Of a stretch of DNA of 34,162 bases, positions 3,777-23,200 are shown in pieces. The translations under genes and the position numbers were made by a program. Origin of the DNA: a virus; the IMG/VR virus record IMGVR_UViG_3300000265_000011, positions 1 through 34,162 of that record; one strand, 5' to 3'. The number at the start of each line of letters is the position of its first letter. Position 1 is the first letter of the stretch. The notes under the pieces are model-generated. The model was not told the origin of the DNA and did not search any database. It saw only the letters and a list, made by a program, of their open reading frames with translations.

Positions 3777-4178
3777 ATGCCATTAGAACGGGTATCAGCG
3801 GGTTTTAAGGATATTAGTGCAAGTTTTCAGTTTAACCCACTGAATAGGGACCTTATTGCAATCAAAAATGAGACCGCAATAGCCCGTTCTATTCGAAATA
3901 TTGTAATGACTACCCCTGAAGAGAAACCATTTAATCCAAGATTTGGTTCTAGAGTATCAGATCTTTTATTTGAAAATATGGATTTTGCTACTGCAGCACT
4001 AATCAAGGATCAAATAAAAAATTCTATTGAAAACTATGAACCAAGGGTAGAACTTGATGAAGTTATTGTCATTCCAGACTATGATAATAGCGAATTTAAT
4101 ATTACTATTAAGTATTTTATCATTGGTATAGATGCTTTACCACAACAACTATCGTTCGCACTGCAGCCTACTAGATAA
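3777..4178 (+). CDS. gp25: Baseplate wedge subunit gp25
   Basis: The 133-residue protein matches the T4 gp25 / GPW family in length (132 in T4) and in layout. The conserved block FNPRFGSRVSDLLFE (52-66) is followed by a helix and a last beta region (EVIVIPDYDNSEFNI). gp25 is the lysozyme-like fold protein at the inner wedge of the baseplate, where it contacts gp6 and gp53 and helps start sheath assembly; it is not enzymatic. The gene follows a late promoter box directly and its stop TAA abuts the ATG of gp6, so the two are translationally linked. Confidence 0.93.
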   Translation: MPLERVSAGFKDISASFQFNPLNRDLIAIKNETAIARSIRNIVMTTPEEKPFNPRFGSRVSDLLFENMDFATAALIKDQIKNSIENYEPRVELDEVIVIPDYDNSEFNITIKYFIIGIDALPQQLSFALQPTR

Positions 4179-6095
4179 ATGGCAATAGTAAACTTCACAA
4201 ATTTAGATTTTGATCAGATAAAAGATAGTATAACGCAATATCTAAGATCAAACTCAAACTTTACAGATTATGATTTTCAGGGATCTAATCTATCAACTAT
4301 TATTGATGCTCTAGCATATAACAGTTACATATCAGCATATAATGCTAATATGATAACTAACGAAGTTTTTATTGATAGTGCTACCCTAAGAGAGAACGTA
4401 GTATCTTTGGCAAAGCATATTGGATACTTACCAAGATCCAGAAACTGTTCCAAAGCTATTATATCATTTATTGTCAATCTATCATCTGGTAATATATCAC
4501 CAACTTACTTAACTTTAAAATCTGGCATTATCTGCATAACCCAACTTGGAGTCACTAAAAGCAACTATATTTTCTCCTTAAGAGATGATATTGTTGCTCC
4601 TGTTGTAAATGGGATTGCAGTTTTTAATAATGTTGAGATTCTAGAAGGAAGTCTAGTCTCACAATCATTTACTGTTAATAGTATTTTTCCAAATCAGAGA
4701 TATATTTTAGATAATGCAAATATTGATACTAATACTATTAGGGCGGTCGTAAGAAAAAGTGCCGAAAGTTCTGTTACTGAGGTTTTCAGTCTTTGTAAAG
4801 ACTTTTGTGCTATTGGATCAGAATCTAGAGTATTTTTCCTACAAGAGATTGAAGACCAAAGATATGAGATAATCTTTGGTGATGGAGTATTTGGTAGGAA
4901 ACTTGAAGATGGTAATATTGTAGAACTCTCTTATATTGTTAGTGATGGTGGCGAAGAAGCTAATAATATTGAGACCTTTAAGTATGTTGGCAAGATTTAT
5001 AGTAATAATAACAGATTTGTAGATGCTGGCATTTCTATAGTATCTTCTGATGGACCATCTCAAGGTGGTAGAAACATTGAATCCATTGATTCTATTAAAA
5101 AGTTTGCACCTAGATTATATTCTACTCATGGTAGAGCGGTCACTTCATCAGATTATGAAGCTATAGTTACTCAGATTTATCCCGAAGCAGAATCAGTTTC
5201 TGTTTTTGGTGGTGAAGAGTTAGATCCACCACAATATGGTAAGGTTTTTATTACTATCAAACCATATGAGGGAGATATCTTACCAATATCAGTTAAAAAT
5301 AATATCAAAGATTCTTTAGGTAAATATGGTGTTGCTGGTATTAGACCAGAGATTATTGACCTTAAATACCTCTATGTTGAATATGATAGTAGTGTTTACT
5401 ATGATATCAATAAAGTTGGCAGTGTAAATTCATTGAAATCAAACATTGCAGATTCTATTGAAAGATATGCAGACTCTGTTGAGTTGAATAAGTATGGTGC
5501 TAGATTTAAATATAGTAAGTTCTTGAAGATTATTGATGATACTGATGCATCTATCACATCAAACATCACTAAAATTACTATAAGAAGAGATCTAAAAGCA
5601 TCTATTAATGCTTTAGCTGAATATGAGATTTGTTATGGTAATGGTATACATGTTAATAACTGTGATGGTTATAATATAAAGTCTTCTGGATTTAAAGTCT
5701 CTAACTACATCGATACCGTCTATATTACCGATATTCCTATGAGAGGGGGTATGGGTGAGATAATCCTGTTTAAGTTGAATGGAGGCGTTCCTGTAGTGCT
5801 TAGAAGGAACTATGGGAAGGTGGATTATAAGAAGGGTGAGATTGTTCTATATCCAACTATTATTACCTCTACAGAAAAAATCAAGTTCAATACCTCGGTT
5901 ATTGAAATTTCTGGATCTCCATCTTCAAATGATGTTATTGGATTACAAGATCTATATCTTCAGTTAGACACTACAAATAGTATGTTAAATATGATTAGAG
6001 ATTCAATATCTTCTGGGGAAGATACTTCAGGATCCTCGTTCATAACCTCATCAAGCTACACAAACTCAACCAGCGGACAGTATATAAGAAACTAA
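4179..6095 (+). CDS. gp6: Baseplate wedge subunit gp6
   Basis: At 638 residues it is close to T4 gp6 (660). The N-terminal helical part contains NVVSLAKHIGYLPRS (73-87), the most conserved stretch of cyanophage gp6. Later blocks include GDGVFGRKL and the RLYSTHGRAVTSSDYEAIV region. The C-terminus ends in a Ser/Thr-rich tail. In T4, gp6 dimers form the continuous inner ring of the baseplate and join neighbouring wedges, driving the shape change at contraction. The start directly abuts the gp25 stop. T4 and many relatives have gp53 nearby; I see no separate gp53 between gp25 and gp6 here. Confidence 0.93.
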   Translation: MAIVNFTNLDFDQIKDSITQYLRSNSNFTDYDFQGSNLSTIIDALAYNSYISAYNANMITNEVFIDSATLRENVVSLAKHIGYLPRSRNCSKAIISFIVNLSSGNISPTYLTLKSGIICITQLGVTKSNYIFSLRDDIVAPVVNGIAVFNNVEILEGSLVSQSFTVNSIFPNQRYILDNANIDTNTIRAVVRKSAESSVTEVFSLCKDFCAIGSESRVFFLQEIEDQRYEIIFGDGVFGRKLEDGNIVELSYIVSDGGEEANNIETFKYVGKIYSNNNRFVDAGISIVSSDGPSQGGRNIESIDSIKKFAPRLYSTHGRAVTSSDYEAIVTQIYPEAESVSVFGGEELDPPQYGKVFITIKPYEGDILPISVKNNIKDSLGKYGVAGIRPEIIDLKYLYVEYDSSVYYDINKVGSVNSLKSNIADSIERYADSVELNKYGARFKYSKFLKIIDDTDASITSNITKITIRRDLKASINALAEYEICYGNGIHVNNCDGYNIKSSGFKVSNYIDTVYITDIPMRGGMGEIILFKLNGGVPVVLRRNYGKVDYKKGEIVLYPTIITSTEKIKFNTSVIEISGSPSSNDVIGLQDLYLQLDTTNSMLNMIRDSISSGEDTSGSSFITSSSYTNSTSGQYIRN

Positions 6096-6099
6096 AAAT

Positions 6100-9000
6100 A
6101 TGGAAAAAGTATCTCTTAATAGTCTTGTAGAAAATCTTGTTCCCGAGTATGTTAGGGAAGAGTATCCCCTGCTTGTAGAGTTTTTAAAACAATACTATAT
6201 CTCACAAGAAACTTCTGGGCAATCTCTAGACCTTATTCAAAATCTAGCAGAATATGTCAAGATTGATAACTTGACAAACCTAGTAGATTCTTGCAATCTA
6301 ACTGCAAGTATTTCTTATTACGAAAAGGATATCTTTGTAGATACTACTAGAGGATTTCCATCTTCGCAAGGTCTTATTCAGATCAATGATGAGGTTATTT
6401 TTTATAATAGATCTGTAGAAGAGGAACCTATTGAGTTTGTTGGTAAGATTGATATTGGATTTAATGAGATTACCAGTACTGAAGTTGAGGACACTACATC
6501 TACTGTTGGTTGGTATGTAAGAGTTTATAACTTAGATGAATCTAAATTTATTGGCGAAGGTCTTGTAACTGGCACCAATGATGGTAATAATATCAAAGTC
6601 AACTTTACACCAGTACCTTCTTCAGATATTGATGGATATGAGACTTCTGACCTATACATCTGTAAGATCACCAGATCCAAGTTTACGGGGTGTAGAAGGG
6701 GTTTCTCGGGGGTTACAGGACTAAAGGGTAGTGTAACGTCGAATAAACTCATTTTCACGTCTACGAAGGCATCTAAGCATAAGAATGGTGATGTTGTAAC
6801 CAACTTAAATATCATCTTACTCAAAGAGTTTTTTAAAAAAATAAAAGTCCAGATTGCTCCTGGATTTGAAAATGAGGAGTTTTATGACGTTATTAATGAG
6901 TCAACTTTTGTAAAAAATATTAAAGAGTTTTATAGATCCAAGGGTTCTGAATGCTCATTTGATTTATTATTCAAAGCATTATATGGAAAACCAGTAGATA
7001 TTGTTATTCCAAGTAACTATCTGGTAGAACCTTCTAGTTCTAGATATTCCATCACAAAAAATCTTATTGTAGAACTTATTGAAGGTGATGCAAGCGAGTT
7101 AGAAAATAGAACATTATACCAAGATACCCAGTTTAATATTCCAAATACAAGGGGTATTATTACAAAACTAGAAAAACTGCAAAAAGATAATAAAGATTTT
7201 TATCGTTTATATATTGATAACTCTATTGAGGAAAACTACGATTCCACATATGGAAACTTTACCATTCATCCTAAAACTAAAAATACTACACGTATAGAAA
7301 AAAATCAAACATTTGTTGATGTTGATTCAACCATTGGATTTCCTCTTAGTGGAACTTTAGTATTAAAAGATGACTTCAACCTAGAATATCGCGTAGAATA
7401 TACTTCCAAAACATCTACACAGTTTTTGGGATGTACTGGATTAACAAGAGATTTTAAAGAGAATAGTGATATTAATCTAGATGTATATTCGTATGTCAAT
7501 GTTACGGGTGGTCAAGTTAAAGTACGTGTAACAGGTGTTCTTGATAATAGTATTGAATCTACTATATTACCATCGGTAAAAAATCTAAGAAAAAATGATT
7601 ATCTTCCAATAAAAACACTTGGTACTGAAATAAAAAATGATCCAAGATCTTCTTCTTGGATTTATAACATTCCCAAAACTTATCAAGTAAAATCTATTGA
7701 GTTATTAGATAACACTGATTTTGCTTACAGAGTTTATTTTTATGAAAAGCATGATCTATCAGTTGGTCAAAACATTACTCTAACCCCAGTATCTGACATT
7801 TCTGGTTCCTATAATGGGACTGTTGTTGAATGGAATAACCAGTTTTCTGTTATTGTAAGAGGTAGTAGAGTATTTTTAAATGAAAATATTAAATATGATT
7901 TAAAGAAAAAACTAAACAAATCAAACTTTGATGGAATAATCAACTATCCAGCTGATGTTCAGAATACTTATTATGACAGAAAAACAAATGACATTTATGT
8001 AAACTCGCAATCTTTACCACTTTATAGACCATCTCTTGAAGTTGAAGAGTTAAATGTAAATAAAAGAATACGTGCATTTTCTGGCATATTTAAAGATCAA
8101 GACACTTTAGATATTGGTAAACATGGTTTTATAACTGGAGATGCTGTAGTATACAAACCCAGAACTGTTTCATATATCCCAAGTTATACTCTTGATGCAA
8201 ATGGTGTAAGAAGCTATAAGTTTATCAATAATGAAACTGGAGATTATGAGAATAATCCAACTTTGGTTCTAATAAGAGGTAAAAAATATACCTTTAGAAA
8301 TGATATGAATCAACACCCCTTTAGGATTCAGATAGAATCCAATGGGACAGTTAGTGATCAATACAATGATGGCATTAAAAATAATGATGTAAGTAATGGC
8401 GTATTAGTTTGGGAGGTTCAAGAAGATACTCCAGATGTTTTATATTATCAATGTTTAAACCATCAAGCAATGGGTGGTGTAATCAATATTATTGACGAAG
8501 ATGAGCAAAAATCTTTAAATATTGATAAAGGAATATATTTTATTGAAAAAGTATCGCCAACTCAGATTAAACTTTATAGAAGTAGAACAAATATAGTTAA
8601 AGGTCAGTCAGTAAAATTTAGTGGCGTCGTTATCCAAGATACTATTGAATCGTATGATTATGTTTACAAAAATCTTGACAGTAGAAAGATAGAACCTCAG
8701 GATATCATCAGAAAAATAGTTCGTCACCCAGGACATGAACATTCTAATGTATCAGCAAAGATTACTGAATCACATACTATTGGTATTTGGAGAAATGGTA
8801 TTGAACTATTAAACTATAAATCTAAAGATTTCATCTCTTATGGTCAAATTAAATCTCTAGACGTTCTTTCAAAAGGTTCTGGTTATGATGTAATCAATGT
8901 TCCTCATTTGCGAATTACTGATCCAAACGGTTCTGGATGTGTATCTAACCTTTCGGTAAAAGGTTATTTAAGTAGAATCGATATATTAGATAAGGGATTT

Positions 9001-12000
9001 GATTATATTGAAACTCCAGTGATAAAAATATCTGGGGGTAATGGAACTGGAGCAAAAGCAGAAGTAGAACTTGAAAAATATGTCCATTTTTCAACTTTTA
9101 ATGCTTCTGAAGTAGATCTTGTAAATGATAGTATCGGTTTTTCTACTTATCACAAGTTTAAAGATGGAGAATCCATTCAATATGAAACTTTGGGTCAAGT
9201 AGCTATTGCTGGTTTATCCACATCTTCATATTATTTTGTATCTCTTGTTGATAGTTACAATGTGAAGTTGCATAAATCCAAATCTGATGCTTTAGATAAT
9301 AGAAATCCAATCAATCTGGATCAAATAGGAACTGGAAAGCACAATTTAAAGTCCACAAATAGAAAAAATAGAGTAAAAAGAGTAAATATTTCCCAAAATG
9401 GATATGGTTATGAGCAAAAATACAGATCATGTCCATCTTCTGGCATTAGTACATATAAAGATTTGATTAAAATCAAAGATCATGGTTATCAAAGTGGAGA
9501 AATAGTCACCTATAATCCAAAAATTGCTCCAGTTGCTGGTCTTTCATCTGGAACGGACTATTATGTACTAAAAAATCATGATGATTCTTTCAGATTATGC
9601 GCTATTTCAGGAATTTCAGCACAAAAAGACATTTTTTATAAGCAGAAAAAGTATATTAACTTTGATGGATTTATAGAGGGCGATCATACGTTCAAATATC
9701 AGGATATTGTAGTCACAATTGAGGGAAGATCTTCATTAAGTCAGGAAGATCTTAATGCTGATACAAATGCTAGAATAAGACCCATTTTTATTGGTGAAAT
9801 TGATAGTGTTTTTATCGAAAATGGTGGTCAAAAGTACGGATCTCAAGTTTCAAACTTTGTTTCTCAACCAAATATTCAGATTTTACAGGGCAGAAATGCT
9901 AGATTAAAACCCATTATTAAAAATGGCGAGATTATTTCTGTAATAATCCAAGATTCGGGAAAAGATTATTATTCCACACCAGATGTTTCTGTAATTGGTA
10001 CTGGAGTTGGTGCAAACTTGATTCCAATCGTAAAAGATGGTTATATTTCTGATATTATAATCGAAAATCCTGGAATCGGATATCAATCTGAAGGTACTCA
10101 AGCACTTGTAGTCAACAGAGGAATCTCTGGTAGTATTTCTGCAAATATTCAGACTTGGAGAATAAATCTCGTTGAAAGATATGTTTCGACTGGACTGATT
10201 TCACCAGAAGACTCTTTCTTATATGAAGGAAAGACAAAATCAAAAGGTATTCAATACGTTCATACCTATGCGCCAAGAAAACTTAGAGAGATTTCTCTTG
10301 CTAGTAGATTCTTAAATGGTGTTGAAGTTTTTAATCCAGATTTAGAACTTATTAATGGAGTTGAATCAGTTTCTTTAGCACATTCTCCAATTCTTGGATG
10401 GGCATATGATGGAAATCCAATCTATGGTCCATACGCTTATTCATCACAGACTGGTGGTAGAATAATCCAGATGACTTCAGGATATGAATTAAGAACTGAT
10501 TTAAACAAAGACAAAAATAGACCAAATCTAGTAGATTTTCCACCAGGATTTTTTATTGAAGATTATACATTCACTGGAAATGGTACATTGGATAAACATA
10601 ATGGAAGATATTGTGTTACTCCAGATTATCCAAATGGTGTCTATGCGTATTTCTGTACTGTAAACACTGAGGTTGATTCAAATGGATTATTTAAATCATA
10701 TAGAAGACCAGTTTTCCCATATGTTATTGGGAATGAATATATTTCTTCTCCTATAAAGTTTAACTTTAAACCAACATCAACTTTAGAGTATTTTGATTTA
10801 AATACTTCAGGTTTGACTAGAAATACTGCTCCATACAGCTTGCTGGCAGATACTATTAACTATCCATATTTAAAATATGATAAAGCATATAGAAATCAAA
10901 ACGCAATCGTAAAATCTACAAAGTTTGGATCAGTAACTAGTGTTGGTATTGTTACTGGTGGTTATAACTACAAAGTTGGAGATAGAGTTGTATTTGACGG
11001 ACAAATTGATACATTTAAAGCAAAAGGTATGGTTAGCAAAGTAAAGGGGGTAGATATTGAATCTATCAGTTTACTTCACTCCGAATCGCAAACATGCAAT
11101 ATTATAAAAACCAGTAAAGTATTCACTGCATTTACTGAAGACCCACATGGTTATACTCCTGGGGAGAGTGTATCATTAACATTCAATAATGAACTATTAA
11201 CAACAACTGAGATAAATGTTAAGTTTAATATAATAACATTAAAGCAAAATCTTGATATTCCTTCAGTAACTGGAATTGTTACTCATATTTCTGTTGCAAC
11301 TATTTTTGATTTGATTTATCCAAATGATGTTTATGAACTTAATAATGAAAAAATAAAGGTTTTAAGAGTAGAATCTAACAAGTCTAGATTATTAGTTCAA
11401 AGGGAATATGATGGTTCTATTGGATCAACTCACCAAGTATCTTCAGGATTTATTGAAGTTCCAAGAAAGTTCACCTTTAGTCCACAAAATTCTTTCATAA
11501 CAACAAGTTTTACAAACTCTCTAGAAAATCCGTTATATTTTATCCCCTCAGAAAATGTTGGATTGAATACAGTAACAATCAATATAAGCAATCATCCTCT
11601 TATTACTGGTGATTTACTAGATTATTCAAATGAAGGTGGAACTTCTATAACCGTAGAAAATGAAAACGGATCATTCTTACTTTCTGATGTTGAACAGATT
11701 TATGCTGTAAAAATAAACAGCAATCTGATTGGTTTGACAACTGTATCTTCTGGAATCACCACAGATCCACAACTATTGTTATTCACTAATGTTGGACTGG
11801 GTTCTGTTCACAGTCTAACTCCAAGATATTCAAATGTTTTAGAGTGTGATATTTCAGATGATAGAGTATTAGTTACTACAAGTACTCCACATGGTCTTTC
11901 TCTTGGCGATAGATTTGATCTTTATGTAGAATCGGGCATTTCTACAACTTATAAAGTAGAATATAACAAACGAAACAGAGCTGTTATCATTGGAAGAAGA

Positions 12001-15000
12001 GATTTTGAGTCTTCTGATGTAAATACTTTAAAAAACTTCATTACAATAGAAAACCATAAGTATCAACGTGGACAACAAGTAATATATCTATCATCCAATC
12101 CACAGATAACTACTGGATTAGATCATGATAAAGTATATTATGTGTCTGTTATTACTCCCAATAAAATTAAGTTAGCGAAGCAAAGATATGATGCTCTGTT
12201 GGGTATAAACTCTGTAGATATTACAGCATCTCTTGCTGGATCAATATTACCAATAAATCAACCATTAGAAGTTGTAAGATATGAAGATATTATTTTTGAT
12301 CTTTCCGATTCTTCATTATCAATCAATAATGAGAGAGAAAAAGAGGCATTTGATTTTAGATTATATTGGGATCACATGTTGACCCATGAGTTCTATTCAA
12401 CTACTAAACAACGTTCATTTGATCTGACATATAATGGTTCCATAGGTATTTCAAGTGATGCAAAAGCAACTCTAAGAAATAGTTCAAATCTACCAAAAGA
12501 GATTTATTATAATCTAGTTCCAAAGAGAAGATTTGGTAATAATACAGAAAATCTTGAACTTTACACTTATAAAAATAGATCAGATGATGGATATAGTAAT
12601 AACTCCATTAATGTTGTTGATAGTAAGTTTTCTAATACCTACAAAATCAACTCAAATACATCAAATACATTTACAGCACCTATTTTTAATGACCCAGAAA
12701 GATATGAATATACTTCTGGTAGAGGAAACGTACTAAACTATTTTGTTAAATCTCCAGTTGTTGAAGGATCTATTGCTGAAATTGAGATTCAATCTAGAGG
12801 TGAAGGATATAAGAGTATCCCTAAAATAGATAAGATTGTTTCGGAAAATGGTAGTGGTGCCATTCTAAAGGTCGAAAGTAACAATATTGGTACACCATTA
12901 AATATCGAGTTTGACGATATTGGTTACGATTATTATTCTGACAATACTATTAGACCATCATCAAAAACTCCTACAATTATTGAGTTAGATTACTTGTCTT
13001 CTGTAAAGGAAGTTAAGGTTATTTCGCCAGGTAAAAACTATTCTACTGCTCCAGATATCATCATTATTGATGGATATACCAATAAGTTAGTGGAAGATTT
13101 GGAGTTTAAGTATAACATATTCACGAGAAAAGTCGATATTATTAAAAATACATATAACTTATCTGAATATTCACCAAAAATCCTCACTATAAACAACTCA
13201 AATGGCATTGGAATCAATACTATTACATTTAATGAGGATAATAAGCATGTAACTGTAGAACTTTCTCCATCATACAGTTTCTTACAAGACTTCCCATTTG
13301 AGATTGGTGATAAAGTATTGGTCGAAAATGTAAGTGTTGGTATTGCAACTACTGGTAAAGGTTATAACTCAGAAAACTACAACTATACTACATTTACTAT
13401 TATTGATAGAGATCCTGCTCTTGGTGGTATTGGAGCAACTGTTACATACAGTCTACAAAATCTTCTTGGAGAAGGAGAATCTCCTGGTAAGTTTAATGTT
13501 TTTAACTCAGTAGGAAGAATAGTTCCATTAAAATACTTACCAACTTTTGAGATTGAAACTCAAAAGAGTAAGTTCTTTAGCAATGAACCAGTTGTAGGAA
13601 CCTCTGGTGCAAGAGGAAACATTCAGAGTATTGATTATGATAGAGACATTATTAAAGTTTATACCCTGGATGATTTTAAGGTTGGAGATGTTCTTAGAGG
13701 ACTAGTTTCTGGAAGAAGATCCAGAGTATTAAAAGTAGTCTCAGATGAGATAGATTTTCCAGTTACTTCTGGATCCGCAGTTAGAAATGGATGGTCAACA
13801 AGAAAAGGTTTCTTAAATGATCCAGAACAAAGAATACACGATAGTGATTACTACCAATACTTCTCTTACTCTGTAAAATCTGAAGTTGACTATGAAACTT
13901 GGAATCCATATGTTTCAAATCTACTCCATACTGTAGGATTTAAAAAGTTTAGTGATATTTTGGTTCCATCAGAACCAAACTCTTTTGTGGGAATAGAAAC
14001 TATTCAATCATCTGGAGATATTAGTGGTATTGCTGACATCCATAGAGTTATTGACGTAGATTGCTATCAAGATTTTGATACTATTACAGAAACTACATCT
14101 ATCATAAATGAGACTAGAAAATCTAAAGAGGTTATTCTAAGGTCTAGACTACTACAAGATTATATTGAGTCTATTGGCAATAGAGTTTTAGAACTAGATG
14201 ACATATCTTCAGAGTTTAATCAGGTTGTAAGATCTACAAGATATTCAACTATTGATGCCTACCAAAAAGTTGTTGGATTTAGAAAATACTTTGTTATTGT
14301 TGAAAATATCGATAATCCATATGAAAGACAAGCAGGTGTAGTTCTACTACTCTCTGATGGTTTAAATGTATTTAATGTTGACTATGCGAAATTGTTCCCA
14401 CAATCAACCATTGGAGATTTTGATGCGGAGATTTCTGGTGCTGAAGTTTTATTGAGATTCTTCCCAATCAGTTATAAAACGACAAACTACTTAGTCTTTG
14501 TAACTTCTTTAGAAATCGATGCTTCTACAGTTGGTGTTGGATCAATCTCAGAATCTATCCTTGGCGATGCTGTTCATATGTATTCTGAACAGATTCCAAG
14601 TATTGGTCCAGGTGTGTCTGAAGTCTTTAGATTATCTCTGAATGATACTACTAATAAGTTAATCATTCACGTTGGTGCTGATAATGGATATGTGCAGACA
14701 GAAGAGTTGATTATTACTACTGATGGTGCAGATCTATTCGTAAATGAATATGGATTTTTAAATAGTTCTGGTGGTGGTTCTGATAGTACTCCAGGTATTG
14801 CTACCTTTACATATTCTATAGATGGATCTGAAATCATTGTAACTGGTGCATTTGATTCACCAAACTCAAATGAGTTCCAAGTAGATGCATCTATTAAAGC
14901 ATTCTCCTCGACAAATACTGGTGTAGGAACTGCTGCAGTAAATGGTGCTTTATTGGAGACTACATACACTTCTTTCTCTGCATCACCAACACCAACCGCA

Positions 15001-18000
15001 TCTACATTATCATCTTTTGGTGGTAGATATGATGCAACATATGTGATTGCTTCTGTACAAGATTTAACTAATGGTACTCATTACGCAGAAGAGTTTGTTG
15101 TAATGTCAACCTGGAATAAACAGGTCGATTATGTTGCTTCCATCGTTTCAAGTGGAACTGATACTGGTATTGGAACGTTTGGTGCAATATCCAATGGATC
15201 TACTTGTAGTATAGTCTTTACTCCAGAACCAAATATCGATGTTGATGTTAGAACCTTCGAATACAAGATTGGTTACTATGATCAAACAACAACTCCAGAA
15301 CAAATCATTGATCTTGGAAACATGAGAGTTGATTCTGGATTTGGTGATTATGAAGGAACTGAACTTTCAATCAAAAAATCATTTGAACTATATCATAAAG
15401 AACAACCATTATTCCAAAAAACTATTGATGCTACTCAAGCAAGTCAACTTGATATTGATAATAATATTATCAGCACACCTGGACACTATTTTGTTACTGG
15501 AGAAGAGTTAGATTACTCTTATAAATTCTCTGATGTTGGATTAACCGATAATGCTATTTCTATTGCGTCTACTACTGTTCCAGGAATAGGTCTTACCGAT
15601 AAACTGCCTACAACGGTATATGCGATTAAAGTAGACGAGTTAAGTATTCAAGTTGCAGCATCTGCATCTGATGCATTGGCATTTAATCCAAAAATCTTTG
15701 AGGTTGCGTCTTTAGGGATTACTACAGATCATAAATTTACATCTAAAAAACAAAATACAAGAACTCTGATTTCTCTAGATAATATTGTTCAATCCCCAGT
15801 AGTTTCATCTGGAACAACTGCTCTATTGGCAATAGATTCAACTCCATTTAATGCTACCCTTGAGTTCCAATCTGTTGATGGATTCCAAGGTGGAGATCTG
15901 ATTCAGATTGATAATGAAATCATGAGAATCTTTGTTATTGGATTTAATGATAATCCAAACTTTGTTTATTGTACAAGAGGATTTATTGGAACTAAGAGAA
16001 ATACTCATCCAGCTGGAAGTGTAGTAACAAAAGTAACTGCAAACTATAATATAGTTGGCAATACCATTTATTTCCCAGAAGCACCTTTTGGAAACATTCA
16101 GTTTGAAAACTCTCTCAACAAACCAGATGAAGTCGATTACTTTGGTATTGATGTAAGATCTAAGTTCAATGGTAGAGTTTTCTTAAGAAGCTCTTCTCCT
16201 GGGTCACAGTATGATCCATACAACGATAACTTTATCTTAGATACAGTATCCGATCAGTTTAATGGATATGATGATGATTTTACTATCCAAAGTCTGGGTA
16301 GTAATGTGACAGGTATTGCATCACTAAATGCTGCTGTTCTTGTTAATAATGTTTTCCAAATTCCAGATGGTCCATTTAATAATGGAAACTATACAATGTT
16401 GGAAGTTGGTGGTGAAACTAAGATTAAGTTTACAGGATTTAGTAGCAGCACCAGTTATTATGATATTAACCAATCTGGTTTACCAAGAGGAAGAATCATC
16501 CTTTCAGTTGGTTCTACTGCTGGACTTGGTTATCAACCTTTAGTTTCTGCTGGAGGAACCGCTACAATATCTGGTACAGGATCAATTTCCAATATTTCTA
16601 TTGGCAACTCTGGTTCTGGATATAGATCTGGAATCCAAACATATGTCAAGATTGGTGTTGTAACAACATCTTTAGATTCTGATGTAGAATACATTGGATT
16701 TGCAACTGTTTATAATGGGTCGGTGGTTTCTATTGCAATCACAAATCCAGGAACTGGTTATACCTCATCAAATCCACCTCAAGTTATATTTGATGATCCA
16801 GAACCATATTGGAATATTCCTCTTCAATATCAAGCACCTTCTAGCGGACTGGGAACTGAGGCATATGTAGATCTTGTTGTAAGTCAAGATTCTAGTGTTT
16901 TAAGCTTTGAGGTAAGAAACTATGGTTATGGATTCAATGTTCGTGATCTATTAACAGTTCCTGTTGGTGGTGAAACTGGTATCCCAACTACATCGGATTA
17001 TGGTGCATTCGAATACTTCACTATTATTGTAGATCGTTTATATGCAGATGATTTCTCTGCATGGCATTTTGGAGAGTTGCAACCTATTGATTCTATTCAA
17101 GACCTCATTGATGGAAGTAGAAGATTCTTCCCAATCTATATTAATGGTCAACAAACAACTATTAGATCAAAACCAGGATCTGGTATTGAAGTTAAATCTA
17201 CACTTCTAGTATTTGTAAATGATGTTTTACAAGTTCCAGATGAAGGTTATATTTTTGAAAATGGAAGTATTATTGAGTTCCCAGTTCCTCTAGAAATAGG
17301 AACAAAAGTAGATATAGTATTTTATAGGGGTTCTGGATCAGTTGACACTAGAAATGTAGACATTATTGAACCAATTGAAAAAGGTGATTTATTTACTATT
17401 AATAGCGATAATCCATTGTATTTGCAAAATGAACGTCAAGTATTTGATATTGCGAGTACAAATACAGTTGAAACTATTGCGTATCCAGGTCCAGGATTAG
17501 ATCAAAGTGAATCCATTATCAGACCTATTGCTCTTTGCCAACAAAAGAATGATATTGCAGTGAATGGTGGTTATGTTGGAAAATCTAGATCAATTTATGA
17601 ACCACACATATCCCCAGTAGCAAGAGTGATTGATACTATCAATACAACTTCAACGGATATTTACGTTGATGGAGTTAAGATTTTCTTCGATGATCTTAGA
17701 GAATATTCTAATGAACAAACAAGAAAGCAAACGATAACAGTAGTATCACAAGAATCCATTACTTCAGCTGCTGGAACTGCTATTGTTTCTACTGCTGGAA
17801 CTATTACTGGTGTTGTTATCAGTAATAGTGGTCTTGGATATACATTTACACCATCTGTATCTATTCCAAATCCAGACAATCTAACATTTACAAATAAAAA
17901 TAACTTCTATACCAACCAAACAGTTCTACAAAGTAGCATTAGTAATGGATCAGTAGATTCAATAACTGTTGTTTCTTCTGGATCTGGATATACGGCAACG

Positions 18001-18603
18001 AATCCACCACAAGTTATTATTGAGTCTCCTAGAGCAATATATGAAGTTATAGAGAACGTTAGTTATGAAGGAGATTTTGGAGATGTGATTCAGATTAATA
18101 ATGGAAATACATATCTGGACTTAGATTTATTTGTTCCATTAGATTCATATCTAAGAGATACAGATGTTGCTTCTGTTGGAGTTGCATCTACTGGTTTATC
18201 TGCACTACAAGTTGGTGATTATTTCATTTTAGATAACACAAATGTTGGTGATGGAATAACATCTAGAGATACCACAGGAACAGTAAATGTTTCTATTGGT
18301 AATATCTTCTTAGACAATGTTTACCAAGTGCAGGCAGTTTCTACAGTATCATCTACTGTTCCAGGGGTAGGTGTTACCTTTGTAACTAGAGTGAGAGTAA
18401 ATGTAGATTCTTCTACAAATAATGCTCCTGTAGGAGTAACTACCAGAGCAGGGACTTATACATGGGGTAAAATAACTAATCTAGGAAGAAGAATGCCAAT
18501 GAGTTTTGTGGTTAATAGCAATCGTTTATCTGGAATAAATACATCACCTGTTGTTGTCAGGAAAAATCGTTTAGATTATAAATTATACCTGCAAACCTCC
18601 TAA
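6100..18603 (+). CDS. Giant baseplate-region virion protein in the gp7 slot (4167 aa)
   Basis: One unbroken frame encodes 4167 residues between gp6 and gp8, where T4 has the 1032-residue gp7. The N-terminus (VPEYVREEYPLLVEFLKQ, 14-31) is a motif seen at the start of large marine-phage virion proteins. Visible parts: an 'RGFSG...H..G' module (about 80-240); a cupredoxin-like segment (about 725-800) with His739, Cys785, His788, Met791; a YHYH-like domain (about 1425-1545) with GWAYDG and FPYVIG but YAYF at the signature; at least eight HGF-xTGD modules (His675, 1018, 1128, 1683, 1832, 1931, 1986, 3129); about a dozen GxGY beta modules (from about 926 to 3960); and a second RGFIGT...H module (3254-3312). 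It is beta-rich, with no signal peptide. It probably forms wedge core plus peripheral decoration. The gp7 equivalence is by position only. Confidence 0.8.
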   Translation: MEKVSLNSLVENLVPEYVREEYPLLVEFLKQYYISQETSGQSLDLIQNLAEYVKIDNLTNLVDSCNLTASISYYEKDIFVDTTRGFPSSQGLIQINDEVIFYNRSVEEEPIEFVGKIDIGFNEITSTEVEDTTSTVGWYVRVYNLDESKFIGEGLVTGTNDGNNIKVNFTPVPSSDIDGYETSDLYICKITRSKFTGCRRGFSGVTGLKGSVTSNKLIFTSTKASKHKNGDVVTNLNIILLKEFFKKIKVQIAPGFENEEFYDVINESTFVKNIKEFYRSKGSECSFDLLFKALYGKPVDIVIPSNYLVEPSSSRYSITKNLIVELIEGDASELENRTLYQDTQFNIPNTRGIITKLEKLQKDNKDFYRLYIDNSIEENYDSTYGNFTIHPKTKNTTRIEKNQTFVDVDSTIGFPLSGTLVLKDDFNLEYRVEYTSKTSTQFLGCTGLTRDFKENSDINLDVYSYVNVTGGQVKVRVTGVLDNSIESTILPSVKNLRKNDYLPIKTLGTEIKNDPRSSSWIYNIPKTYQVKSIELLDNTDFAYRVYFYEKHDLSVGQNITLTPVSDISGSYNGTVVEWNNQFSVIVRGSRVFLNENIKYDLKKKLNKSNFDGIINYPADVQNTYYDRKTNDIYVNSQSLPLYRPSLEVEELNVNKRIRAFSGIFKDQDTLDIGKHGFITGDAVVYKPRTVSYIPSYTLDANGVRSYKFINNETGDYENNPTLVLIRGKKYTFRNDMNQHPFRIQIESNGTVSDQYNDGIKNNDVSNGVLVWEVQEDTPDVLYYQCLNHQAMGGVINIIDEDEQKSLNIDKGIYFIEKVSPTQIKLYRSRTNIVKGQSVKFSGVVIQDTIESYDYVYKNLDSRKIEPQDIIRKIVRHPGHEHSNVSAKITESHTIGIWRNGIELLNYKSKDFISYGQIKSLDVLSKGSGYDVINVPHLRITDPNGSGCVSNLSVKGYLSRIDILDKGFDYIETPVIKISGGNGTGAKAEVELEKYVHFSTFNASEVDLVNDSIGFSTYHKFKDGESIQYETLGQVAIAGLSTSSYYFVSLVDSYNVKLHKSKSDALDNRNPINLDQIGTGKHNLKSTNRKNRVKRVNISQNGYGYEQKYRSCPSSGISTYKDLIKIKDHGYQSGEIVTYNPKIAPVAGLSSGTDYYVLKNHDDSFRLCAISGISAQKDIFYKQKKYINFDGFIEGDHTFKYQDIVVTIEGRSSLSQEDLNADTNARIRPIFIGEIDSVFIENGGQKYGSQVSNFVSQPNIQILQGRNARLKPIIKNGEIISVIIQDSGKDYYSTPDVSVIGTGVGANLIPIVKDGYISDIIIENPGIGYQSEGTQALVVNRGISGSISANIQTWRINLVERYVSTGLISPEDSFLYEGKTKSKGIQYVHTYAPRKLREISLASRFLNGVEVFNPDLELINGVESVSLAHSPILGWAYDGNPIYGPYAYSSQTGGRIIQMTSGYELRTDLNKDKNRPNLVDFPPGFFIEDYTFTGNGTLDKHNGRYCVTPDYPNGVYAYFCTVNTEVDSNGLFKSYRRPVFPYVIGNEYISSPIKFNFKPTSTLEYFDLNTSGLTRNTAPYSLLADTINYPYLKYDKAYRNQNAIVKSTKFGSVTSVGIVTGGYNYKVGDRVVFDGQIDTFKAKGMVSKVKGVDIESISLLHSESQTCNIIKTSKVFTAFTEDPHGYTPGESVSLTFNNELLTTTEINVKFNIITLKQNLDIPSVTGIVTHISVATIFDLIYPNDVYELNNEKIKVLRVESNKSRLLVQREYDGSIGSTHQVSSGFIEVPRKFTFSPQNSFITTSFTNSLENPLYFIPSENVGLNTVTINISNHPLITGDLLDYSNEGGTSITVENENGSFLLSDVEQIYAVKINSNLIGLTTVSSGITTDPQLLLFTNVGLGSVHSLTPRYSNVLECDISDDRVLVTTSTPHGLSLGDRFDLYVESGISTTYKVEYNKRNRAVIIGRRDFESSDVNTLKNFITIENHKYQRGQQVIYLSSNPQITTGLDHDKVYYVSVITPNKIKLAKQRYDALLGINSVDITASLAGSILPINQPLEVVRYEDIIFDLSDSSLSINNEREKEAFDFRLYWDHMLTHEFYSTTKQRSFDLTYNGSIGISSDAKATLRNSSNLPKEIYYNLVPKRRFGNNTENLELYTYKNRSDDGYSNNSINVVDSKFSNTYKINSNTSNTFTAPIFNDPERYEYTSGRGNVLNYFVKSPVVEGSIAEIEIQSRGEGYKSIPKIDKIVSENGSGAILKVESNNIGTPLNIEFDDIGYDYYSDNTIRPSSKTPTIIELDYLSSVKEVKVISPGKNYSTAPDIIIIDGYTNKLVEDLEFKYNIFTRKVDIIKNTYNLSEYSPKILTINNSNGIGINTITFNEDNKHVTVELSPSYSFLQDFPFEIGDKVLVENVSVGIATTGKGYNSENYNYTTFTIIDRDPALGGIGATVTYSLQNLLGEGESPGKFNVFNSVGRIVPLKYLPTFEIETQKSKFFSNEPVVGTSGARGNIQSIDYDRDIIKVYTLDDFKVGDVLRGLVSGRRSRVLKVVSDEIDFPVTSGSAVRNGWSTRKGFLNDPEQRIHDSDYYQYFSYSVKSEVDYETWNPYVSNLLHTVGFKKFSDILVPSEPNSFVGIETIQSSGDISGIADIHRVIDVDCYQDFDTITETTSIINETRKSKEVILRSRLLQDYIESIGNRVLELDDISSEFNQVVRSTRYSTIDAYQKVVGFRKYFVIVENIDNPYERQAGVVLLLSDGLNVFNVDYAKLFPQSTIGDFDAEISGAEVLLRFFPISYKTTNYLVFVTSLEIDASTVGVGSISESILGDAVHMYSEQIPSIGPGVSEVFRLSLNDTTNKLIIHVGADNGYVQTEELIITTDGADLFVNEYGFLNSSGGGSDSTPGIATFTYSIDGSEIIVTGAFDSPNSNEFQVDASIKAFSSTNTGVGTAAVNGALLETTYTSFSASPTPTASTLSSFGGRYDATYVIASVQDLTNGTHYAEEFVVMSTWNKQVDYVASIVSSGTDTGIGTFGAISNGSTCSIVFTPEPNIDVDVRTFEYKIGYYDQTTTPEQIIDLGNMRVDSGFGDYEGTELSIKKSFELYHKEQPLFQKTIDATQASQLDIDNNIISTPGHYFVTGEELDYSYKFSDVGLTDNAISIASTTVPGIGLTDKLPTTVYAIKVDELSIQVAASASDALAFNPKIFEVASLGITTDHKFTSKKQNTRTLISLDNIVQSPVVSSGTTALLAIDSTPFNATLEFQSVDGFQGGDLIQIDNEIMRIFVIGFNDNPNFVYCTRGFIGTKRNTHPAGSVVTKVTANYNIVGNTIYFPEAPFGNIQFENSLNKPDEVDYFGIDVRSKFNGRVFLRSSSPGSQYDPYNDNFILDTVSDQFNGYDDDFTIQSLGSNVTGIASLNAAVLVNNVFQIPDGPFNNGNYTMLEVGGETKIKFTGFSSSTSYYDINQSGLPRGRIILSVGSTAGLGYQPLVSAGGTATISGTGSISNISIGNSGSGYRSGIQTYVKIGVVTTSLDSDVEYIGFATVYNGSVVSIAITNPGTGYTSSNPPQVIFDDPEPYWNIPLQYQAPSSGLGTEAYVDLVVSQDSSVLSFEVRNYGYGFNVRDLLTVPVGGETGIPTTSDYGAFEYFTIIVDRLYADDFSAWHFGELQPIDSIQDLIDGSRRFFPIYINGQQTTIRSKPGSGIEVKSTLLVFVNDVLQVPDEGYIFENGSIIEFPVPLEIGTKVDIVFYRGSGSVDTRNVDIIEPIEKGDLFTINSDNPLYLQNERQVFDIASTNTVETIAYPGPGLDQSESIIRPIALCQQKNDIAVNGGYVGKSRSIYEPHISPVARVIDTINTTSTDIYVDGVKIFFDDLREYSNEQTRKQTITVVSQESITSAAGTAIVSTAGTITGVVISNSGLGYTFTPSVSIPNPDNLTFTNKNNFYTNQTVLQSSISNGSVDSITVVSSGSGYTATNPPQVIIESPRAIYEVIENVSYEGDFGDVIQINNGNTYLDLDLFVPLDSYLRDTDVASVGVASTGLSALQVGDYFILDNTNVGDGITSRDTTGTVNVSIGNIFLDNVYQVQAVSTVSSTVPGVGVTFVTRVRVNVDSSTNNAPVGVTTRAGTYTWGKITNLGRRMPMSFVVNSNRLSGINTSPVVVRKNRLDYKLYLQTS
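8257..8500 (+). other. Cupredoxin-like segment within the giant protein
   Basis: The stretch around residues 720-800 reads like a small Greek-key domain: a strand KKYTFRNDMNQHPFRI with His739, and a final hairpin YYQCLNHQAMGG with Cys785, His788 and Met791. The spacing C-x2-H-x2-M, with one upstream His, equals the ligand set of type-1 copper proteins. Many marine phage tail proteins have related segments ending 'C..H.GMGG'. Metal binding is not shown. Confidence 0.6.
10360..10740 (+). other. YHYH-like domain within the giant protein
   Basis: GWAYDGNPIYGPY begins at Trp1434 minus one, followed by DKHNGRYC (1498-1505), YAYF (1515-1518) and FPYVIG (1539-1544). Order and spacing fit the YHYH domain, which is named for its YHYH motif. 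Here both signature positions differ (A and F instead of H), so a function that needs those histidines would be lost while the scaffold is kept. Confidence 0.65.
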
Positions 18604-18622: not shown

Positions 18623-20197
18623 ATGTCAGCAATTATAACTGATCAACTAAGAATACTTAATGCTGAGAACTTTGTCAATGCCATTGGAGTTTCTTCAAAC
18701 TCTTATTATGCATTCATTGGTCTCCCAAATGCAACTGAATATGACTCTGAGTGGGATATAACACCACCATCTCCTAAAGATTGTTTTGACGAAGAGAATG
18801 ATTATTGGGACACTATGACATCCTTAAAAAGGATTTCTAAAAATGATGTTAAAAGAGTCATTAGGAAGATCCAATGGGAAAGTGGATTTACTTATGACAT
18901 GTATAGACATGATATAAGTAGAACAAACTTATCACAACCATCTGAAGCAACTAGTCTATATTATTCAAACTTTTATGTAGTGAATAAGGATTATAAAGTT
19001 TATATTTGTATTCACAATGGTACTGATGAAAATAACTTTTCAGGTAAACCTTCATTGGATGAACCACTGTTTACCGATTTAGAACCAAAACCTGCTGGTA
19101 GCAGTAATGATGGTTATTTGTGGAAATATTTGTATACTATTAATCCATCGGATATCATTAAGTTTGATAGTATTGATTATATACCACTTCCAGATGAGTG
19201 GGGTGTAGATGAATCATCTTCAGCGATCAAACTTCATGCTTCTACTAGTGGACAGATAAAAAATGCAGTAATCGCTGATAGTGGTGCAAATATTGGTCCA
19301 GCAAATCAAGTTTATAATAGAGTACCTATTAAAGGTGATGGATCTGGAGCGGAAGCTACAGTTATTATCGATTCCGAATCTAGGTTAGATTCTGTCATCA
19401 TTACTAATGGTGGATCTGGATACACATATGCAGTATTAGATTTTGCTGGTGGGGGTTTACCAGTAGATACTATTGGTTATGAAGAACCAGATGTTGATGT
19501 TATCATTCCACCTCAAGGAGGTCATGGATACAACATTTATAAAGAGTTAGGCGCAACGAGAGTATTACTTTATTGTAGAATTGAAAATGATTTACAAAAT
19601 CCAGATTTTATTCTTGGAAATCAAGTTGCTAGATTTGGTATTGTAAAAAATCCACTAAAATATGGATCTAATGATATCCTTGATGATGATAAAGTAAGTG
19701 CATTACATGCAATTAAGCTTATTGGAAACATTTCTGATGGTAGATATTTACCAGATAGCATTATTACACAAAATGTTTCAACAGGTACTACTGCTGCTGG
19801 AAGAGTAGTTTCTTACAATGAAAATACTGGGGTTCTTAAATATTGGCAAGATAGAACTCTTTATGGATTTAACTTTGACAAATCTAGAGACTATACTCCA
19901 TCATATGGATATGGTAAAGTTGATTTTACTTCCAATGTCGGTGGTGGCGGAAGTTTATTGATTATCGGTGAAGTTTCTTCATTAGAGATTGATACAGATT
20001 TCGGAACAGAATCTAATCCTGGTATAACAACTGTAATAAATAATAGGACCTACAGTTTGGGTCAAGAATTTCAAAATGGGATATCAAATCCAGAAGTTAA
20101 AAAATACTCTGGAGACATTATCTATGTTGATAATAGACCGTCCATTACAAGATCCCAAAACCAAAAAGAAGATATCAAGGTAATCTTACAGTTTTAA
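18623..20197 (+). CDS. gp8: Baseplate wedge subunit gp8
   Basis: The N-terminal half matches T4 gp8: a start with an 'FvnaIG' helix, APP/TPPSP (around 48-51), a repeated aromatic stretch, SLYYSNFYVVNKDYKVYIC (111-129), and DGYLWKYLY (163-171), which equals DGYVWEYLF in T4. gp8 is a wedge protein that binds the gp7-gp10 arms at the baseplate periphery. At 524 residues it is longer than T4 gp8 (334). The extra C-terminal part contains a GxGY module (GGSGYTY, about residue 262) also found in the giants and in gp14. Upstream is a 19-base gap, with no obvious strong ribosome binding site. Identity is good; the extension is of unknown role. Confidence 0.85.
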   Translation: MSAIITDQLRILNAENFVNAIGVSSNSYYAFIGLPNATEYDSEWDITPPSPKDCFDEENDYWDTMTSLKRISKNDVKRVIRKIQWESGFTYDMYRHDISRTNLSQPSEATSLYYSNFYVVNKDYKVYICIHNGTDENNFSGKPSLDEPLFTDLEPKPAGSSNDGYLWKYLYTINPSDIIKFDSIDYIPLPDEWGVDESSSAIKLHASTSGQIKNAVIADSGANIGPANQVYNRVPIKGDGSGAEATVIIDSESRLDSVIITNGGSGYTYAVLDFAGGGLPVDTIGYEEPDVDVIIPPQGGHGYNIYKELGATRVLLYCRIENDLQNPDFILGNQVARFGIVKNPLKYGSNDILDDDKVSALHAIKLIGNISDGRYLPDSIITQNVSTGTTAAGRVVSYNENTGVLKYWQDRTLYGFNFDKSRDYTPSYGYGKVDFTSNVGGGGSLLIIGEVSSLEIDTDFGTESNPGITTVINNRTYSLGQEFQNGISNPEVKKYSGDIIYVDNRPSITRSQNQKEDIKVILQF

Positions 20198-20203
20198 AGA
20201 ATT

Positions 20204-23200
20204 ATGCCATCAAAAACGAATCTAAACGTCTTTCCTTATTTTGATGACTTTGATGAGGACAAAAACTATTATAAAGTTCTTTTTAAACCTGGATATCCCA
20301 TTCAGGCTAGAGAGTTATCAAACGTACAATCGATACTGCAAAATCAGATCGAACAGTTTGGAAACCACGTTTTTAAAGAAGGATCTGTTGTAATCCCAGG
20401 TAATATTAGTTTTACCAGGATTACTGGCGTTGAGGTTCAAAATACATTTAATGCTATTGATATTGATCAATACATTAATAATGCTAAGATGTACGGATAC
20501 GTTATTGTTGGTAGAGATAGTGGTCTAAGAGCTAAAGTTGTTAAGGTACTTAGAAAAATCGATTATCCAGATTTAAATAATACTCTGGTATATTTTCAGT
20601 ATTTAAATACTGGAACCAATAATGAAACTGAGTTTCAACCAGGAGAATCTCTCTACGCAGAATCTGAGATTCTTCCTATATTGAGGCGTGGTGTAACTTC
20701 TTCCACTCTCGTAAATGTAACAACTCAAAATACTGAAGACATTTATGGTGATCGTGGTGTACAAAGTACCATTGTAACTGCTTCAAGATCATCAAGCAAT
20801 ATTTCTGGACAATATCAATACGAAAATGTTAGTACTATTGATGATATTACTCTTAGAAGTGGTCAAAATTTCTTATTAGTAAAAACTCCTATTATTGGAT
20901 CAGCAGCTATTATTAGCGAAGGTGTATATTTTCTAAGAGGAAACTTTGTTAATGTTGCTGAAGAGTTACTAGTTGTAGATAGGTTTAGTTTCTTAGCAAA
21001 TGCAAAGATTGGACTAAGTATTACTGAGCAGATTATAACTTCAGATAATGATTCAACTCTATTTGATAACTCTAGAGGATTTTCAAACTATGCTGCTCCT
21101 GGAGCAGATAGATTAAAAATCACAGCAAGATTAGCATCTTTAGATTTAGATGATGATCAAACAGATAACTTTATTGAACTTACAAGAGTAGAAGACGGCA
21201 ATATTGTATTCTTAAATAGAAATCCTGAGTACAATGAGCTTGGCAATGAACTCGCCAGAAGAACTTACGATGAGTCTGGAGATTATTATATTACACCATT
21301 TACTCTAACCGTAGAGGAATCTCTAAATGACTTAGAGGGTAGCAGAGGTGTATTTAAAGAAGGAGAAGTAACTAGAGAACAAAATACTCCCAAGGAAAGT
21401 ATGGGAGTATTTAAAATATCTCCAGGAAAAGCATATGTTAAAGGATATGAGGTTGAAAGGTTAGCTAGTACTTTAATCGATTTTGAAAAACCTAGAGATA
21501 CTAAAACATTATTAAATCAGTCCATCCAATATGCCCCTGGAACAGGTCTAACTCTTAATAGGTTACATGGAACACCAAAGATTGGTATTTCAACCTATCA
21601 CGTTTCTTTGAGAGATTCTAGACTGGGATCAAATAATTTAGAAGCATCTGGCAAAGAGATTGGATTGAGCAGAGTATATGATTTTGCTCTAGAATCTGGT
21701 GCATACAACACAAGCAATCTAGATCTCAATGAGTGGGATCTAAATGCATATGATTTAGATTTCTATACAGAGATTACATTAAACCAACCAGTAACAGAAA
21801 CTGTTCCATCAAAAATTGATGGCAAATATACTGGAGCATTTTCTTTCTTAAGGTTTGGTGCATCAAATGCAGGTGTGGTTACTGCATATAGTAGTTCTGG
21901 AAGATATTCCATTGGAGAAAAAATCACTTTTAGTAATGGAGAAACTAGAGTAATCACAAATATTAGATCATATGGTATTGATGATACCAAATCAGTTTAC
22001 GGAAATGTCGGATTATCTACATTTACTGGTGATCTAAAGCAATCCAAAAAAGTTTCTTTGGGAAGTGTTGCTATTCAAGGCGAATCTGCTGGAGTATCTA
22101 CAGTAACATCACCATCAACCATATTTACCAGTATTTGTGAGGATGGAGATTTAGTATCTTATAGTATTGGCGAAAATACTATACCAAACTTTGCAAAAAT
22201 CCAATCAGTATCGACTAATAGTATTGTTATTGAACCAGTTCAATCGGTTTCTGGTATTTGTATAGGAACTCTTCCAGTATCAACAACTACTGGATTAGAT
22301 TTTGCTATTTTAACTACAGAAAGACAAGTTGGTAATAACGCATTATATACTCCGTTCCCCAAGCAAAATATTGAATCTGTAGACCTTAGTGAGTCTAGAA
22401 TTTCTATTAGAAGAGAGTATTCTGTTACTATTGCAGGTAATGGTTTTATCATTTCAGAATCTACATTATCTGCAAATGAATCTTTCCAACCATATGATGA
22501 AGAAAGATATTCTTTGGTAACTCTTGATGGAACTATTATTCCATTAGAAAGTGGAAACTTTGCATTCTCAAATGGTGGTAGAGAAGTTACATTAACTAAT
22601 CTCACTACTAATGGTCAAGCAAGATTTATTGCTTCACTGTACAAATCAACAGTTAAGAGTAGAGCAAAAGTTAAAAAGATTGAAGTTGCTACATTATCAA
22701 AATCATCTCTTGAGCAATCTGGTGTAAATATCGCTGGTGTTGGCGCAACAACTTTAAATGATGGTTTAGTATTTGGAAACTATCCATATGGCACAAGAGT
22801 TCAAGATGATAGAATCTGTTTAAATCATCCAGAAATCATTAGATTGTATGGTGTTTTCGAATCAAGAACTACAGAAGATCCGATTTTACCGAAGTTAACA
22901 ATAACTAATATTCTAACTTCTGAAAAGTCCCCAACAACTGCAAATAACATTAAAGTTGGTGAGCGTTTAATCGGAAGCACTTCAGAATGTGTTTTAGTAT
23001 GCACTAATATTATAAATCCTTCAACTATTGAAGTTGTATCGGTAAATCAAAAAACTCCTTCCACTTCTGAAGCAATAAAAGGCAAAGAAACTGGCATAAC
23101 GGCAGAAGTAGTAAACTATATCGATACGCAAAGCGTTAATATCACTGATAGATATTTACTTGAGTCTGGAGAGACTTCTCAAGCATATACATATTCATTC

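Follow-up and report, generated by a model that had tools for sequence, protein, structure and literature searches.

Results

Gene content of the locus

The window, that is, the whole stretch of DNA analysed here, is a 34,162-base IMG/VR virus record classed as a likely fragment. Assignments by PHROGs place several baseplate genes in it, together with connector, sheath-stabiliser and small-terminase genes. The T4 gene numbers used below were taken in part from annotated relatives (S-B05 and S-SSM7) and are for the remaining part those that we assume from general knowledge of T4. The genes of interest are the following.

3777-4178: baseplate wedge protein (PHROGs)
4179-6095: gp6-like protein (PHROGs)
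6100..18603, + strand: giant gp7-like baseplate wedge protein of 4167 amino acids, bearing the predicted cupredoxin domain (open reading frame; phrog_2885)
18623-20197: gp8-like protein (PHROGs)
20204-27925: phrog_358 protein of 2573 amino acids (full-length match to a PHROG without known function)

The 4167-residue protein matches the baseplate wedge family phrog_2885 with an E value of 0 and lies between gp6 and gp8; the protein that follows gp6 in S-B05 and S-SSM7 is annotated as gp7, the baseplate wedge initiator. The phrog_358 protein sits between gp8 and the connector genes, and no gp9-like gene is seen there. A separate part of gp7, residues 1427-1524 (10378-10671), is a YHYH domain (Pfam E 1.4e-22) whose name-giving motif appears as Y-A-Y-F, so that the zinc or hydrolase site proposed for this family may be lost.

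Four candidate ligands in one domain

The preliminary description of this DNA had proposed that the giant baseplate protein contains a cupredoxin-like region with the four ligands of a type-1 copper site, His739, Cys785, His788 and Met791. All four can be read directly from the translation at these positions.

8182..8508, + strand: cupredoxin domain as modelled, residues 695-803 (AlphaFold2)
8314..8316, + strand: His739, putative ligand upstream of the others, part of an H-P-F motif (paired by hhalign with the His in plastocyanin P-P-H-N)
8452..8454, + strand: Cys785, putative ligand through its thiolate, last residue of model strand 86-91 (sequence, model and profile alignment)
8461..8463, + strand: His788, putative ligand, in the loop preceding the last strand (sequence, model and profile alignment)
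8470..8472, + strand: Met791, putative axial ligand, just ahead of the last strand (sequence, model and profile alignment)

His739 lies within NDMNQHPFRI and the three downstream residues within YYQCLNHQAMGG. Cys785 is the only cysteine of the domain; the protein as a whole has 17, and the spacing C-x2-H-x2-M occurs in it once. At the DNA level, a pattern corresponding to YYxCxxHxxMxG had a single match in the window, whereas 100 shuffled versions gave none.

Sequence homology and predicted fold

Used alone as a phmmer query, the window sequence retrieved no copper protein from the PDB, just two unrelated proteins at E values of 0.3-0.4. When 14 relatives were added to the window copy to form a profile, 36 PDB sequences were retrieved at E <= 10 (best E 0.0017), and every one of these is a plastocyanin, amicyanin, rusticyanin, auracyanin, azurin or pseudoazurin, copper nitrite reductase or multicopper oxidase. 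With a 121-row profile (hmmsearch) the best PDB match, plastocyanin 2plt, reached E 2.8e-5, and 57 of the 60 matches listed out of 72 are copper proteins by title, many of them variants of one protein. No phage protein is named among these 60 of 72 matches, nor among the 50 structural matches listed (see below).

The domain profile was also compared by hhalign with the aligned plastocyanin genes of seven cyanophages, which gave a probability of 85% and, counted as one comparison, an E value of 6e-6 over 68 columns. In this alignment His739, Cys785, His788 and Met791 fall on the residues of the plastocyanin motifs P-P-H-N and C-x-P-H-x-G-A-G-M that we take to be the known copper ligands. The first His of the domain is followed by Pro, where plastocyanin usually has Asn. 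Two plastocyanin rows of the 121-row profile align Pro on Pro and so displace the His; this shifted register was rejected in favour of that given by the 2gb2 amicyanin row and by hhalign, which place His on His. A separate plastocyanin gene (petE) was present in seven of the eight domain-bearing phage records searched. An origin of the domain from phage petE is unsupported, the identity printed in the profile alignment being 19%.

Pfam does not file the window copy under any family, since no model reaches its gathering score on it. At E <= 0.01, PF00127 (Copper-bind) is matched singly by 30 of the 121 relatives but not by the window copy, which stays below the curated cut-off of 21.2 bits and hence does not count as a family member; the whole record has no match at E <= 10. 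Its best single match is PF25489 (At5g54830-like), with E 6e-5 and 23.5 bits against a cut-off of 27; the copy covers just the C-terminal third of this model, which is matched by 42 of the 121 relatives at E <= 0.01.

AlphaFold2 models the domain with confidence (pLDDT 95.8, pTM 0.88) as a beta sandwich of nine strands; the cupredoxin superfamily is characterized by a Greek-key sandwich of about eight. His739 (residue 45 of the model) immediately precedes a strand, Cys785 (91) ends one, and His788 (94) and Met791 (97) occupy the loop before the last strand. Such a placing of His, Cys, His and Met relative to the strands is the cupredoxin layout. All 50 matches listed by VIA-align are cupredoxin-fold chains by title, among them the N-terminal domain of nitrite reductase (Z 10.1, rmsd 2.5 over 93 residues) and rusticyanin (Z 9.4, rmsd 2.1 A over 91 residues). 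Foldseek gave moderate values, the best match having E 9.5e-4 and a TM-score of 0.55, with immunoglobulin domains next at about 5e-3. In the model, the strand positions, together with the plastocyanin register of the alignment, argue against the four residues being far apart. Judged from sequence and prediction, the region from about residue 695 to 803 is a genuine cupredoxin domain whose His-Cys-His-Met type-1 site is intact.

Conservation and loss of the ligands

Copies of the domain were collected in three pattern scans and are to be read as samples among the matches listed. The pattern of the first scan, YYQCxxHxxMxG, leaves the upstream His free. Among the matches listed, this His was present in 119 of 120 viral copies, four of which are near-copies of the window, and in 104 of 105 copies from the genome collection; the figures refer to copies with enough upstream sequence, six viral and 15 genome-collection copies having been dropped as too short. 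For the second scan, YYQ and MGG were required but neither the Cys nor a His, and the ligand columns of the profile were masked. Loci already found in the first scan, intact by choice, were left out, and the 84 new copies among the matches listed, some of them further copies away from the pattern, comprise 68 with all four ligands, 15 without His, Cys and His, and one whose upstream part is missing. Hence 15 of 83 readable copies have lost the three residues together and none has lost just one or two. Twelve of the site-less copies read F-A-T/V/I-M at the ligand positions, the others GNRM, YSNM and DSRM. The third scan was anchored upstream of the first His and demanded no ligand; leaving aside three sites that were too short, all four ligands were found in 114 of 119 copies among the matches listed. 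Its exceptions are three copies without His, Cys and His, one without the second His and one without the Cys and the second His. The ligands, whose conservation in homologues the preliminary description had wished to see examined, do not vary freely.

Among the 61 columns compared for conservation in 47 non-redundant copies, those of the four ligands hold ranks 3, 6, 7 and 8 (column median 60%). Over all scans, the partial variants are MCHM, HCYM and HSTM, and the axial ones HCHE and HCHQ. The ligand columns were excluded when a tree of 175 non-redundant copies was built; with 89 of its 172 inner branches open, this tree calls for at least 10 changes among the intact, partial and completely lost states; subtracting the three partial copies leaves about seven complete losses, a rough figure. 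The tree and second-scan counts refer to copies aligned over enough of the domain for all ligands to be read. Within the domain, the window differs from 97%-identical relatives by 19 synonymous nucleotide differences and five in residue-changing codons, none of them at the ligands.

Mostly complete loss with retention of the domain is what would be expected if the residues serve one shared ligand, and retention after such loss implies that the fold does not depend on the site. The suggestion that the residues might only keep the fold, also made in the preliminary description, is disfavoured on this account, several lineages having retained the domain after losing the whole site. A metal site that is real but can be dispensed with would be expected to give this mostly all-or-none pattern. 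For most copies, a disulphide inside the domain in place of a metal can be excluded, 282 of 311 full copies having exactly one Cys (19 have none and 10 have two).

A site-less lineage (L010, L259, L260, L261, L262, L264, L271, L277, L281, L290, L292, L317 and L325), in which H, C and H are replaced by F, A and T/V/I and the rest of the domain is kept, constitutes a natural control. Its member L010 is an annotated tail fibre protein in S-B43.

Insertion into gp7

Alignment with other gp7 proteins shows the domain to coincide with an insert.

8107..8496, + strand: match to positions 276-410 of 412 of the gp9 family phrog_677 (residues 670-799)
8158..8520, + strand: insert relative to five gp7 homologues, residues ~687-807 (BLASTP blocks end at 642-700 and resume at 766-808)

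About 120 residues are absent from the gp7 homologues L316, L344 (P-TIM68), L345, L346 (S-B05) and L347 (S-SSM7), in all of which both flanks align; by alignment, the insert is placed in a hairpin between TGDAVVY and GIYFVEK. The nearest relatives (L001-L004, L313 and L342) have it. A search with the whole gp9 family found no match to the N-terminal part of gp9 in the window, itself a fragment, so that the two parts that make up a phrog_677 protein are not joined here. Likewise, the records of L001, L002 and L004, also fragments, carry the C-terminal part of gp9 alone, within the gp7 frame, as does that of L342 within a partial gp7 frame. A gp9 may lie outside these fragments. The record of L316, whose gp7 has no insert, contains a separate frame of 555 amino acids with both gp9 parts. 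Most simply read, these sequences would mean that in this lineage gp7 has acquired the C-terminal domain that normally belongs to gp9.

Occurrence in phages, viruses and bacteria

Of 50,697 phage records, 324 were matched in a tblastn search with the window domain, and 319 of the 324 bear Synechococcus, Prochlorococcus or cyanophage in their names. Among the 60 matches listed, 47 are annotated as gp9, the baseplate wedge tail fibre connector, and the remaining 13, to which the podovirus P-GSP1 contributes one, as gp10, fibre, tail-pin or hypothetical proteins; in most cyanophage records listed the module forms the end of gp9. The preliminary description was right to place the site in a giant baseplate protein, gp7, but this protein is not a lone oddity, the domain being common in marine phage tail proteins. 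A second type of query matched 42 records, including proteins annotated as S8 peptidases. A cupredoxin-type domain is seen in cyanophage proteins annotated as subtilisin-like or S8 peptidase (H127, H128 and H134; BFVD ranks 15 and 17). Among the predicted viral structures of BFVD there were 53 matches at E <= 0.001; "beta-sandwich" proteins of Pithovirus and Marseillevirus match the cupredoxin model at ranks 20, 32, 43, 45 and 50.

The genome-collection matches listed are largely from marine Flavobacteriaceae and other Bacteroidetes, with Gammaproteobacteria and others also represented; some resemble phage (for example L174, L193 and L217, by similarity), so that the counts mix hosts and viruses. 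In 73 of 109 genome-collection frames with a readable stop, the stop lies within 28 residues of the start of YYQC. Six bacterial proteins were put to Pfam. Three end with the domain, following DUF285 and Ig-like or InlB-type repeats, one of 131 amino acids has an apparent signal peptide, and two of 500-580 amino acids carry the domain internally. Bacterial proteins of about 500 amino acids (L228, L243, L190, L191, L200 and similar) show the variant H-D-F ... C-R-N-H-K-x-M-G-G; the two tested, L228 and L243, have no NCBIfam match. The L228 protein exceeds the PF25489 cut-off with 28.5 bits. Neighbouring genes were listed for five bacterial loci, and Pfam was applied to one of these neighbours. 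This gene, L178:7203-7757, is found close to a flavobacterial copy that stands alone, and its product, a cupredoxin-type protein, matches PF00127 (E 4e-10) and has a sorting tail for type-IX secretion. Taken together, the sequences place the domain in a large family of portable modules, whose members occur both in the tail proteins of marine phages and in bacterial proteins that mostly look secreted.

Discussion

The claim that gp7 holds a cupredoxin domain with a complete type-1 ligand set has stood up to profile searches, profile-profile register, predicted fold and conservation, and that this domain is a cupredoxin homologue with a selected site is, in our judgement, nearly certain. Short motifs do arise by chance, and the four residues were first picked out by eye; a chance motif in a beta-rich phage protein is nonetheless ruled out for practical purposes by the profile, fold and conservation results.

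With plastocyanin, amicyanin and rusticyanin (PF00127) the phage domain shares fold class, ligand order and register. Its C-x2-H-x2-M spacing is amicyanin-like, and the title of a Foldseek match names the loop CTPHPFM, presumably that of amicyanin. In contrast to these small blue copper proteins, it sits inside a virion protein and is not a free electron carrier; it has His-Pro-Phe in place of His-Asn, it stays below the Pfam score, and site-less lineages exist. In laccases, the type-1 His is likewise followed by Pro-Phe. The cupredoxin domains of copper nitrite reductase and laccases are the best structural matches, yet those enzymes differ in that a single domain is present here and Pfam sees in gp7 no partner domains for a type-2 or type-3 site. 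The partial match to PF25489, the best that a single Pfam model gives for the window copy, concerns the C-terminal third alone.

Metal sites have been proposed for phage tails before, on YHYH domains or HxH motifs (PMC7824862, PMC7029224 and PMC11705849). The HxH iron sites of tail fibres and the associated Ferrojan or Trojan-horse proposal resemble the present case in placing a metal on the tails of marine phages; according to PMC11705849, they consist of iron at His pairs of fibre trimers, whereas here a single chain would provide His, Cys, His and Met in a cupredoxin. The YHYH domain, another predicted metal binder borne by tails and present in the same gp7, belongs to a different family (PF14240) and is predicted in PMC7824862 to be a zinc hydrolase; its signature is altered in the gp7 copy. 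Plastocyanin genes of phages are treated in PMC3037559, which also points to virion proteomics of S-SM1. In the open-access literature found, mostly judged from listings, there was no report of a cupredoxin as a virion part, and mentions of cupredoxins or blue copper concerned unrelated matters. The cupredoxin family itself is known; that literature does not describe a module of this kind that is widespread in phage tails and has a type-1 ligand set both complete and under selection.

What might such a module do? We propose that it is probably a portable, metal-bound cupredoxin, with copper the most likely metal, serving as a metal-tuned contact domain of marine phage tails; as an overall explanation, a cupredoxin module with one metal ion and a contact face has in our estimate a probability of about 0.75. 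The module, placed in a hairpin loop of gp7 and elsewhere at the end of gp9, would probably bulge from the baseplate, and we infer a position on the virion surface. The domain would fold with a preformed pocket. Virions assemble in the cytoplasm, so that the domain would probably take up copper once the cell has lysed or on reaching the host surface; a gene for copper loading was not identified. A single ion, most likely copper, would then enter the pocket and stiffen or tune an exposed loop face through which the module would touch the host surface, a fibre or an adjoining subunit. The parts of this proposal differ in strength. Binding of a metal in nature is very likely, and the identification of that metal as copper is favoured with less assurance; that the role is one of contact or stiffening rather than electron transfer, which is argued from the company the domain keeps, we would put at even odds.

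One could instead envision a redox device, in which a working blue-copper centre exchanges electrons with proteins of the host surface or of photosynthesis, or senses redox state, and thereby triggers or aids infection. The complete ligand set in plastocyanin register invites this idea, as do the cyanophage-type names of nearly all the phage records, the separate plastocyanin gene in most of those searched and the location of one flavobacterial stand-alone copy (at L178) close to a PF00127 protein. However, Pfam shows no redox partner domain in gp7, the domains found in company with the module are structural (tail, fibre and surface repeats), several lineages have dropped the site while retaining the domain, and non-phototrophic bacteria have the domain too. 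Structural and surface company and the existence of lineages without the site favour a contact module over an electron-transfer device, which we regard as unlikely. Thiolate and imidazole sites can hold several soft metals, and the pocket might take zinc, silver or iron, or carry a scarce metal from lysed to new cells; the iron proposed at the HxH motifs of T4 gp37 and of marine phages (PMC11705849) offers a parallel. Against this, the HxH sites are arranged differently, and it is in copper proteins that this set of ligands, their spacing and the fold are found; we hold this alternative to be as improbable as the redox device.

The fold might also persist as an inert spacer or binding module, with the ligands as leftovers of a metal-free relic. 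The lineage with F-A-(T/V/I)-M and other lineages with replacements do retain the domain, and the fold evidently needs no site. Leftover ligands should nevertheless decay singly, whereas most of the losses seen are complete, few columns are better conserved than those of the ligands, and the site is intact in nearly all third-scan copies among the matches listed. These observations make a relic very improbable.

It is tempting to speculate further that marine T4-like virions as a rule contain blue-copper domains maintained by selection. Each particle would carry several copper centres at the periphery of the baseplate (on gp9, or here on gp7); these would receive their metal outside the host and serve at host contact as a redox switch or a metal-dependent one, or else as a shuttle moving copper between cells. 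This wider picture is tentative and, in our view, unlikely.

Cupredoxins are among the best-studied metal proteins, and the 324 phage records include many cultured marine cyanophages, so that the metal prediction can be tested on phages already in laboratories. If it is true, the metal content of purified virions should stand in a fixed ratio to gp9 or gp7, marine phage particles would represent a pool of copper, and metal-dependent steps at the baseplate would become testable. The analysis also names a module, common to phage tails and proteins of marine bacteria, that the annotated records listed do not call a cupredoxin.
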